Source: Rhodospirillales bacterium
GTDB lineage: Bacteria; Pseudomonadota; Alphaproteobacteria; ATCC43930; CGMCC-115725
Assembly: GCA_019689675.1 (NCBI GenBank)
Contig: JADGGZ010000015.1
Location: 1-32,570 of the forward strand
Reading direction: 5' to 3'
DNA: 32,570 nt
Positions 27,943 to 31,944 of this stretch are shown here, piece after piece; positions within the stretch are counted from its first letter, which is position 1, and each line of letters starts with the position of its first letter. The notes below the pieces were generated by a model. It saw nothing but the letters and a program-made list of their open reading frames with translations. It did no database searches and was not told the DNA's origin. A program made the translations under genes and the position numbers.

Positions 27943-29679
27943 CTAGACGTCGGCGTAGACGTGCGTCTCGGCCTTCGCCCCCGGATGGGTCACCGCCCCC
28001 TTCTCGGCGTCGCCCACCGTCTGCGCGTATTTCCAGAGCGCGCCCGACTGGAAGTCGTGGCGGCGCGGCTTCCAGCGCTTGCGCCGCCTCTCCAGCTCCT
28101 CGTCCGAGAGCTCGACCTCGAGCGTCCCCTTCTCGGCGTCGATCGAGATGATGTCGCCGTCCTGGAGAAGCCCGATCGGGCCGCCGACCGCCGCCTCGGG
28201 GCCGACATGGCCGATGCAGAAGCCGCGCGTCGCGCCGGAGAAGCGGCCGTCGGTGATGAGCGCGACCTTCTCGCCCATGCCCTGCCCGTAGAGCGCCGCC
28301 GTCGTCGCCAGCATCTCGCGCATGCCGGGGCCGCCGCGCGGCCCCTCGTAGCGGATGACGATGACCTCGCCTTCCTTGTAGGTGCGCTTCTCGACCGCCT
28401 CGAACGCGTCCTCCTCGCAATCGAAGCAGCGCGCGGGCCCGCGGAACTGGAGCTTCGCCATGCCCGCGACCTTCACGATCGCGCCCTGCGGCGCGAGGTT
28501 CCCCCTGAGCCCGACGACGCCGCCGGTGGGCGAGATCGGGTTCTTGGTCGAGCGGACGACGTCCTGGCCGCTCGGCACCACGACGTCGGCGAGGTTCTCG
28601 GCGACGGTCTTGCCGGTCACCGTGAGGCAGTCGCCGTGGAGATAGCCGCCGTCGAGCAGCGCCTTCATCAGCACCGGCACGCCGCCGATATCGAAGAGGT
28701 CCTTGGCGATGTATTTGCCACCCGGCTTCAGGTCCGCGATGTAGGGCGTGCGCCGGAAGACCTCGGCGACGGCGTGGAGGTCGAAGTCGATCCCGGCCTC
28801 GTGCGCGATCGCCGGAAGATGGAGCGCCGCATTGGTCGAGCCGCCCGAGGCGGCGACGACGGTGGCGGCATTCTCGAGCGCCTTCCTCGTCACGATGTCG
28901 CGCGGCCGGATGTTGCGCCGGAGGCACTCCATGACGGCGTGGCCCGAGGCCTCGGCGTACTGGTCGCGGGATTCGTAGGGCGCCGGCGCGCCGGCCGAGC
29001 CGGGCAGCGCGAGGCCGATCGCCTCGGAGACGCAGGCCATGGTGTTCGCGGTGAACTGCCCGCCGCATGAGCCCGCCGAGGGGCAGGCGTGGCACTCGAG
29101 GTCGTGCAGGTCCTCGTCGCTCATGTTGCCGACGCTGTGGAGGCCGACCGCCTCGAACACGTCCTGGACGGTGACGTCCTTGCCCTTGAAGCGGCCGGGC
29201 AGGATCGAGCCGCCGTACATGAAGACGGACGGCACGTTGAGGCGGACCATCGCCATCATCACGCCGGGCAGCGACTTGTCGCAGCCGGCGAGACCGACGA
29301 GCGCGTCGTAGCAATGGCCGCGCATCGTGAGCTCGATCGAATCCGCGATCACCTCGCGGCTCACCAGCGACGACTTCATGCCCTGGTGGCCCATCGCGAT
29401 GCCGTCGGTGACGGTGATGGTGCAGAACTCGCGCGGCGTGCCGTTCGCGGCGGCGACGCCCTTCTTCGCCGCCTGGGCCTGGCGCGAGAGCGCGATGTTG
29501 CAGGGCGCGGCCTCGTTCCAGGTCGTCGCGACGCCGACGAGCGGTTGCGCGATCTGCTCGTCGGAGAGCCCCATCGCGTAGAGATACGACCGGTGCGGCG
29601 CGCGCTCCGGCCCGACCGTCACGTGGCGGCTCGGCAGCTTCGACTTGTCGATCGCGGGCTTGCGGACGTCGTCTGGCAT
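27943..29679 (-). CDS. ilvD: Dihydroxy-acid dehydratase
   Basis: This 578-residue protein catalyses the step from 2,3-dihydroxy-isovalerate (or -3-methylvalerate) to the 2-oxo acid in valine, isoleucine and leucine synthesis. The three cysteines expected to hold the iron-sulfur cluster are C60 (E-A-A-P-C-N-I-A-L), C133 (A-G-C-D-K-S-L-P-G) and C205 ([13 protein letters not shown]). Later motifs are [20 protein letters not shown] and [19 protein letters not shown]. Length and start agree with the family ([19 protein letters not shown]). The ATG has GGGGAGAAGAAG upstream. The 92-base gap before it holds a - strand TGATATTC that could be part of a -10 element. This pathway also supplies the leucine whose breakdown is represented by ivd. 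Confidence 0.96.
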
Positions 29680-29771: not shown

Positions 29772-30446
29772 TCAAGCGTCGTCGTGGCCGTTGATGAGCG
29801 GCTTCACGCCCGTTCCGCCGGGCCGGCGCACGTAGATGTTGAAGCCGAGATCGTGGTGCGCGCCCGGCATGAAGCGCTTGATCGCGGCCGCGACGCTCTG
29901 CACCCGCTCGAGCTCGCCGACGTTGGAGTCGATCGAGTAGTAATGATTCCAGAAGAAGAGATCGACCACCGACGAGCTCATCCAGTTGACCGGCGTCTTG
30001 TAGCCCGCGATCCAACGGATCTTGTGGTCGCGCTGGTCGCCCGCTCCCAGCATGTAATCCATCGTATCCGGGTTGGCGAAGAGGCAGGAGCCGAAGAAGA
30101 GGCCGTTGAGCTTGGCGCTGCGCTCCTTCATGAGCGTGTGGAGAATGTTCCGCAGCCGGATGCGCGAGACGTAGTTCCGGCGCCGCGCCATGCGCCCGTT
30201 GGTCGCCGCGCCGTAGATGCCGCCCTCGTCGCCGTGCGCGGCGATGTAGATGTTGGCGACGGACCGCTTCATGCTCAGGCGGAACAGCACTTCGCGAAGC
30301 GATTCCGCGTTGTTGAACATCTCGTAGTGATAGGCGGAAGGGTTGTCGACGAGGATGTCGGCGAGGACGTCGAAGAGGCCCTTCACCGAGGAGTTGCCGT
30401 CGACCCACCACCGGCTCTCGATGACCGCCAGATCCAGCTTCCGCAT
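29772..30446 (-). CDS. Unannotated protein with caspase/CHAT-like His-Cys arrangement
   Basis: I recognise no named family for this 224-residue protein, but its layout suggests a clan CD (caspase/CHAT-type) cysteine peptidase fold. V-A-N-I-Y-I-A-A-H71-G-D-E-G ends a hydrophobic strand with His-Gly. N-G-L-F-F-G-S-C121 ends the next hydrophobic strand with a Cys. The spacing is 50 residues, as between the catalytic His and Cys of caspases. A third strand (I-R-W-I-A-G-Y) leads to M-S-S-S-V-V-D-L-F-F-W-N-H-Y-Y, which resembles the helix after the active site in CHAT domains. No signal peptide, membrane segment or partner domain is seen. The ATG has a poor ribosome site and lies 22 bases after the M81 peptidase stop, so the two may be co-transcribed. 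Activity is inference. Confidence 0.7.
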   Translation of the reverse strand: MRKLDLAVIESRWWVDGNSSVKGLFDVLADILVDNPSAYHYEMFNNAESLREVLFRLSMKRSVANIYIAAHGDEGGIYGAATNGRMARRRNYVSRIRLRNILHTLMKERSAKLNGLFFGSCLFANPDTMDYMLGAGDQRDHKIRWIAGYKTPVNWMSSSVVDLFFWNHYYSIDSNVGELERVQSVAAAIKRFMPGAHHDLGFNIYVRRPGGTGVKPLINGHDDA

Positions 30447-30468: not shown

Positions 30469-31944
30469 CTAACCCGCCGCGAGTGGCTTCAAGCGCAACC
30501 CGGGGCGCAATTTCCGGAATGGCAAAGATGCCGGGTCGGCCGGCAATGCGCCCGGCGCGGCGGCGACCAGCACCTCGGCGGCGATCGGCTCGAAATCGGC
30601 CCGGAAATGGACCGAGCTCTTGAGGACGAGGAGGCGCTGCGCCGCCGGCTCGACCCCGACATGGCGGAAGATCGCCTGGTCGGCGGCCTGGAGCTTCTTC
30701 GAGGCGACCACGACCCGGACGCCGCCGAGCCGCAAGGCGGCCATCGGCCCCAGGCGGCATCTGGCGCCGCCCCACATCGGCCCGGTGCCGGTGAAGCTGC
30801 CGTCGCCGAGCCGCTCGACGACGAACCGGCCGCGGAACGGCGCGTCGCCCGGAATGCCCGAGCGGCCGCCGAGGACGAGCTCGATCTCGGCGCCTTCCCC
30901 CGCCGCGTGCGCCGCTAGAGCCGCCTCGGGATCCGCCATGACGCCGAGCGCGGCGCCCTCTGCCCCGTTCCGAACCAAAGCGGCGAGCATCCCGGTCGTG
31001 TCCGAGGTGCCGCCGCCGCCCGGATTGTCCTGCGTGTCCGCGATCACCACGGGCTTGCCCGGGCTCGCCGCCATCGCGTGCCGGACGGCCTCGTCGGGCG
31101 ACCAGATCCGCCCGGCGAAGCGGGGCTCGGCGGCTTCGACGAGGCGGAGAAGCGCCTCGGCGGCGCGGTCGGCGGCCTCCTGGGTCTCGGCATAGGCGAG
31201 AACCGCGGGGCCGCAATCGGCGATGTCGGCGGCCGGAAAGCCGGGCGTGAAGGAGGCGGACTCCGCGCCGGCCTCGTCGAGCGCGGCATAGATCGACCGC
31301 GCCGGCTCGACGAGGGTGCACTGCCAGGTGATCGGGATGAGGAAGGAGGCCTGGCGGAAGGCCTTCCCGCGGGGGCCGGCGCCCTCGAGGAAGCGGTGCA
31401 GGAGCATCGCCGCGCGCCCGCCGGTCTCGGCCATGTCCGTATGGGGGTAGTGGCGATAGGCGACGAGCGCGTCGGAATGCTCGACCATCGCGGCGGTGGT
31501 GTTCGAATGGAGGTCGAGGCTGGCCACGACCGGCACCTTCGGCCCCACCACCGCCCGGACGCGGCGGAGGAGCTCGCCCTCGCCGTCGTCGAGATGCTCG
31601 GCGACCATCGCGCCGTGGAGGTCGAGATAGACCGCGTCGAACGGCCCCTGCGCGGCGAGGTCCTCGATCAGCATCCCGACGATACGCTCGTAGGCGTCCT
31701 CGGTGACGTGCGCGGACGGCGTCGCCGCCGCCCAGACGAGCGGCACGGGCTGATGGCCGAGCTCCTTCAGCGTCGAAAGGGCGCCCGCGACCGGCAGGTT
31801 GGCGCCGGAAACGGCGTCGACGAGGCCCAGGCCGCGCTGCAGCGCCGGCCAGCCGCCGCCCTCGGCGAAGTCCCGGAACGTCGCCTTCGCAGGCGCGAAA
31901 GTGTTGGTCTCGTGCTGGAACCCGCCGACCGCGATCCGCGCCAT
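30469..31944 (-). CDS. M81 family metallopeptidase (MlrC/microcystinase-C-like)
   Basis: This 491-residue protein matches the M81 family in length and motifs. The N-terminus is MARIAVGGFQHETNTFAPAK. Y-L-D-L-H-G-A-M-V, then A-S-L-D-L-H-S-N-T-T and Y-R-H-Y-P-H-T-D-M-A-E-T-G supply the zinc ligands, and DTQDNPGGGGTSDTTGMLAA and VASKKLQAADQAIF (the C-terminal domain) follow. MlrC cleaves linearised microcystin peptides; most soil relatives have unknown peptide or amide substrates. There is no signal peptide, so it is cytoplasmic. GCGAGG lies ~8 bases before the ATG. Downstream, after 22 bases, is the caspase/CHAT-like protein. The 85-base gap before it contains a CCACC-GGC-GGTGG hairpin that may end the VOC transcript. 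Confidence 0.93.
   Translation of the reverse strand: MARIAVGGFQHETNTFAPAKATFRDFAEGGGWPALQRGLGLVDAVSGANLPVAGALSTLKELGHQPVPLVWAAATPSAHVTEDAYERIVGMLIEDLAAQGPFDAVYLDLHGAMVAEHLDDGEGELLRRVRAVVGPKVPVVASLDLHSNTTAAMVEHSDALVAYRHYPHTDMAETGGRAAMLLHRFLEGAGPRGKAFRQASFLIPITWQCTLVEPARSIYAALDEAGAESASFTPGFPAADIADCGPAVLAYAETQEAADRAAEALLRLVEAAEPRFAGRIWSPDEAVRHAMAASPGKPVVIADTQDNPGGGGTSDTTGMLAALVRNGAEGAALGVMADPEAALAAHAAGEGAEIELVLGGRSGIPGDAPFRGRFVVERLGDGSFTGTGPMWGGARCRLGPMAALRLGGVRVVVASKKLQAADQAIFRHVGVEPAAQRLLVLKSSVHFRADFEPIAAEVLVAAAPGALPADPASLPFRKLRPGLRLKPLAAG

Follow-up and report, generated by a model that had tools for sequence, protein, structure and literature searches.

The window, which is the whole 32,570-nucleotide stretch of DNA analysed here, contains an intact open reading frame for a stand-alone protein with a predicted caspase/CHAT-type fold, located between the genes for an M81/MlrC-type metallopeptidase and dihydroxy-acid dehydratase (Table 1). 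Considering that a composition-scored gene call picks this reading frame as the gene of its stretch and that an orthologue pair (L003/L004) displays purifying selection (dN/dS 0.10), we regard it as a real gene. The preliminary description had placed it exactly, with H71 and C121 correctly numbered, but had left its strand unstated. The GC content of the gene is 0.64 versus 0.71-0.74 in its neighbors, and its GC3 is similar to theirs, which is weak evidence for an acquired gene that has since adapted. A scan for promoters and terminators yielded none.

Table 1. Genes and conserved protein segments of the locus, with positions in the window
Feature	Positions	Strand	Basis
Caspase/CHAT-fold protein, stand-alone, 224 aa	29772..30446	minus	Intact ORF; ATG at 30446; stop codon 29772-29774
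M81/MlrC-type metallopeptidase, upstream neighbor	30469..31944	minus	Pfam; ends 22 nt before the 224-aa ORF
ilvD (dihydroxy-acid dehydratase), downstream neighbor	27943..29679	minus	Starts 92 nt after the 224-aa ORF; not conserved as a partner
E10-V21 (ESRWWVDGNSSV), conserved loop between strand 1 and helix 1	30384..30419	minus	Position of the caspase S1-pocket loop; putative role
Y39-N46 (YHYEMFNN), subfamily signature, strand 2 and following turn	30309..30332	minus	10-sequence alignment
His71 codon (CAC), end of strand 3, followed by invariant Gly72	30234..30236	minus	Alignment conservation
Cys121 codon (TGC), putative nucleophile, end of strand 4	30084..30086	minus	Alignment conservation
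W145-D162, strand 5 (WIAGY) and start of next helix; conserved G148, W155 and D162	29961..30014	minus	Alignment and model

A functional pair with the adjoining M81 metallopeptidase (zymogen and regulator, or two enzymes acting on a common peptide substrate) had been proposed in the preliminary description. The two genes lie on the same strand with a gap of 22 nt and possibly share a transcript. However, their adjacency was seen in the window genome alone: in the flanks examined, M81 orthologues of this bacterial family do not have the gene beside them, and M81 is absent from the DNA examined at all 15 homologue loci. Because no homologue locus encodes M81 nearby, the pairing is unsupported, and we consider it highly improbable. 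The host has two M81/MlrC-type genes (30469-31944 and one at G000:C153), and related genomes have up to ten matches.

Predicted fold and candidate catalytic residues

An AlphaFold2 model built on an alignment of 10 sequences that are 36-47% identical to the window protein reached a pLDDT of 86 and a pTM of 0.87, and its topology follows the caspase order b1-a1-b2-a2-b3(His)-b4(Cys)-b5, then a helix, in a caspase-like alpha/beta/alpha sandwich. H71 is located close to the end of strand 65-73 (NIYIAAHG) and C121, 50 residues later, close to that of strand 115-122 (GLFFGSC), so that His-Gly ends one strand and Cys the next as in clan CD; the Cys strand is followed by a third one at 145-149 (WIAGY) and by a helix at 155-171. 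The arrangement read from the letters in the preliminary description, with AAHG and GSC at strand ends followed by a third strand and a helix, is therefore borne out by the model. All Foldseek matches in the PDB at E <= 0.001 were clan CD proteins or complexes containing one, including SAVED-CHAT, MALT1, caspases 1, 3, 4, 7, 9 and 11, CED-3, and a CRISPR effector with a caspase regulator. Clan CD proteins also ranked on top in VIA-align, in which the protease domain of SAVED-CHAT came first (Z 14.7; next match 11.2) and C11, legumain, gingipain, caspase-8 and Csx29 were found at Z 10.5-11.2. The fold search thus agrees with the clan CD-like fold that had been suggested, and so does the domain layout, as the caspase fold covers the 224 residues and no other domain was found. 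Based on the model and the conserved residues described below, the window protein almost certainly has a caspase-type fold with a His/Cys dyad. Among structural models of viral proteins, the best match was an uncharacterised 320-aa protein of a metagenomic myovirus (BFVD A0A8S5MXG5, E 6e-9), which suggests a phage-carried protein with a predicted caspase fold; named caspases and a C11 protease were further matches in this set.

Conservation of residues was examined in two alignments. In the 10-sequence alignment, H71 and C121 never vary, and neither do 24 further positions, including E10, W13, N18, Y39-N46, G148 and D162. In a wider alignment of 20 sequences, with pairwise identity down to 11% (median 21%) and 178 well-covered columns, H71, G72 and C121 are the sole invariant residues (20/20). 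Two of these three had been picked beforehand as a catalytic pair, and their exclusive invariance at such a median identity is as expected of an enzyme active site. Neither of the two outcomes named beforehand as refuting, a model without the caspase sandwich and a variable H71/C121 pair, was observed. E10 is kept in 19 of the 20 sequences, and the E10-V21 loop falls in the expected region of the S1 pocket as judged by sequence and fold order. Taken with the model, this conservation makes it likely that the window protein is an active peptidase. A caspase-fold enzyme with altered chemistry (a transpeptidase or ligase, cf. butelase and GPI transamidase), or a dead relative acting by binding, would be an alternative, considering that the VIA-align matches include legumain-type ligases as well as a chain of GPI transamidase and that the reaction is not fixed by the fold alone. 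However, both catalytic residues are absolutely conserved at approximately 20% identity, which argues against a dead relative, and nothing pointed to ligase chemistry; we thus consider this explanation improbable.

Family identity and distribution

Scans of the window protein with the Pfam, NCBIfam, PADLOC and PHROG libraries yielded no model that recognises it, and a match to beta-glucuronidase in NCBIfam (E 0.03) was rejected as chance. PADLOC-DB 2.0 gave no match for the protein or for seven of its homologues, and a sequence search of the PDB found nothing significant. With regard to individual families, the protein has no Pfam match to CHAT (PF12770), nor does any part of the host genome; it has no Pfam match to the C14 caspase profile (PF00656) at E up to 5; and it is unrecognised by the DUF6642 model (PF20347), for which the host genome is negative. 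Sub-threshold Pfam matches to C13 and C25 were seen for its homologues. The CED-3 profile matches in register with both catalytic residues aligned, though its E-value of 0.65 is not significant. Alignment of profiles with TPR-CHAT is weak but in register, placing AAHG over ATHG and GSC over SAC (hhalign score 33.0, P 6e-4, probability 28.7%), versus scores of at most 18.8 for 100 column-shuffled profiles.

Homology was detected with DUF6642. The profile of the 10-sequence alignment retrieves a DUF6642 member at E 8.8e-13, and the close subfamily aligns with four DUF6642 members with an hhalign probability of 98.9% and E 2.5e-17, the His and Cys residues being aligned. On these grounds, the window family is placed by sequence as a sister branch of DUF6642. 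We class it as a new family of clan CD type. The protein had been called an orphan, which holds for the library models used but not for its homology to DUF6642. The Pfam cut-off of DUF6642 is passed by three diverged cousins (two genomes also having close relatives) and by a protein from a Brevibacterium plasmid. A DUF6642 scan of 398 genomes of the phylum gave no matches, but its controls were silent too, and thus it says nothing firm on absence. A literature search found neither a paper nor a function for DUF6642, and the main text of DefensePredictor mentions no caspase or CHAT.

Nine true relatives (36-47% identity over the alignment) were detected in a scan of approximately 85,000 species genomes, from Azospirillum, Desertibaculum, Thalassotalea and several proteobacterial MAGs; one further candidate (L011) was rejected because the reading frame of its match is unrelated. 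More members, several of them very distant, came from plasmid records of Rhizobium, Pseudomonas, Vibrio and Brevibacterium. Within the bacterial family to which the host belongs, the gene is present in 1 of 39 genomes, and it is present in 3/385, 2/398 and 2/369 genomes in samples of the class, the phylum and the class of another relative, respectively (query genome counted each time), implying a rare accessory gene; the family occurs in approximately 0.5-1% of sampled genomes and is horizontally scattered between distant bacteria. No match to the family was found in phage genomes, and neither viral contigs nor E. coli DNA encoded a relative. The member on a Pseudomonas veronii plasmid (L062:9005-10015) has an annotated N-terminal extension of approximately 100 residues, and an ADP-ribosylglycohydrolase and PDC-M16A/B candidate defence genes are located nearby. 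In the genome of L006, a second copy (L053:106-582 and L010) is frame-broken after the Cys strand, its remainder being in a different frame, and an intact GmrSD gene adjoins it.

Genomic settings and possible function

All-against-all comparison of neighboring genes found no constant partner: apart from members of the family itself, the only recurrent neighbors were GmrSD and common metabolic and transport families. The loci do not reveal a partner, a substrate or a trigger. A self-poisoning toxin of an addiction pair, checked by an unrecognised small antitoxin, might be considered, since members are mobile and plasmid-borne and the enzyme is small and single-domain. However, no small partner common to the loci emerged from the same comparison, and such a role appears even slightly less probable than altered chemistry.

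Loci often lie in defence islands, whose genes include SspC/SspD (L055), a Dsr1-type SIR2 gene directly downstream (L006/L052), HsdR of type I restriction with LeoA, LeoB and two GmrSD (L054), an adjacent GmrSD (L053), GmrSD one gene off (L059), and PDC-M16A/B (L062). The DUF6642 member of the Brevibacterium plasmid is located near an abortive-infection gene. At three independent loci, GmrSD was found at a distance of no more than 10 kb, versus approximately 0.08 expected from 13 above-cutoff matches in 46.7 Mb and approximately 14 spans of 20 kb (Poisson P ~8e-5, a value that is indicative only because GmrSD was picked after being seen). The host genome has no GmrSD. At L005, which also belongs to the defence setting, the gene and an AAA-WYL gene share 4 bases. 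A distant member (L091:7270-10158) is preceded, at 135 nt, by a gene encoding two AAA ATPase domains, and an ATPase neighbor thus possibly recurs.

On the other hand, approximately half of the loci, the window included, are outside recognisable defence islands. Settings in housekeeping operons were observed between the M81 gene and ilvD (window), around nuoF, between rplL and rpoB, upstream of pntA, and between SDR and carboxyltransferase genes, the last insertion being maintained in two related genomes (L057/L058). Two diverged cousins of the DUF6642 type are located between nuoE and nuoF (L049:8177-8779) and directly after nuoF (L049:10187-10840), and their genome carries a close relative of the window gene as well; a distant cousin together with a DUF1398 gene is located between rplL (L7/L12) and rpoB (L060:8966-10297). 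These housekeeping settings of the window copy and its cousins, and the SDR-carboxyltransferase arrangement common to L057 and L058, speak for an accessory but active clan CD peptidase with a non-defence role, such as host-protein processing, stress signalling or regulated proteolysis. However, the gene is rare and scattered, even among members of a single bacterial family, its neighbors vary and defence islands are frequent, and we consider such a role rather unlikely, if still the strongest competitor to defence.

On balance, we favor a minimal, stand-alone and sensor-less caspase-type cysteine peptidase that is accessory and probably serves as an anti-phage effector. For the defence role taken by itself, most likely against mobile elements, we see about an even chance. 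In the proposed mechanism, Cys121 would attack the scissile peptide bond with His71 as the putative base, and the conserved strand-1 loop E10-V21 may shape the substrate pocket. Because a pro-domain and a sensor are absent, we propose that the enzyme is probably held latent by its active-site loops, as shown for Csx29. It might be switched on when it dimerises or binds a trigger (a stress signal or a phage product), and once activated could cleave at least one host or phage protein, stopping the infected cell. As a one-gene accessory effector, it would use the promoters of the operons that it has entered. More tentatively, the subfamily and DUF6642 could together be an unrecognised family of sensor-less, single-gene bacterial immune caspases; it is similarly doubtful, but conceivable, that such a single-gene caspase both detects the invader and cuts the target without an NLR, CRISPR, cyclic-nucleotide or gasdermin partner.

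A testable enzymatic identity, namely a caspase-type peptidase with C121 as its nucleophile, can thus be suggested for a family unnamed in the libraries used and, by homology, for DUF6642. If the defence role is true, we are dealing with a minimal immune protease, and a single gene together with a single point mutant could suffice to find its trigger and its substrate. The protein would also bear on how caspase-type proteases operate before fusion to sensors.

Comparison with known systems

DUF6642 (PF20347) is homologous to the window protein over nearly the full length and is similar in size, with HG and C invariant in both, whereas the window protein is missed by its Pfam model and the window subfamily has its own ESRWW...YHYEMFNN signature. 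C11 (clostripain-like), C13 (legumain) and C25 (gingipain) peptidases are structurally similar (Z 10.7-11.2), but the matched enzymes are larger and have no above-threshold sequence match. Metazoan caspases, CED-3 and MALT1 (C14 and relatives) match in Foldseek at E 1e-5 to 1e-3, but the window protein lacks CARD/DED and a recognised p20/p10 activation linker, and identity is approximately 9-16%. Csx29/TPR-CHAT of Craspase (PDB 8eex, Z 10.5) has a caspase-type His/Cys site, the dyad being H585/C627, 42 residues apart, whose distance decreases from ~7 to 3 A upon activation (PMC9729208). Unlike the window protein, Csx29 has a TPR domain and acts bound to Cas7-11/gRAMP. The best structural match, SAVED-CHAT of type III CRISPR/CBASS (PDB 8tl0), aligns over 186 residues of its CHAT domain at 8% identity, and its binding of cA3 leads to a proteolytic cascade (PMC11229360), whereas the window protein is stand-alone without a fused SAVED (cA3-binding) sensor. 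By analogy, the window protein may work like SAVED-CHAT and Csx29 at the level of the catalytic domain, without their sensors.
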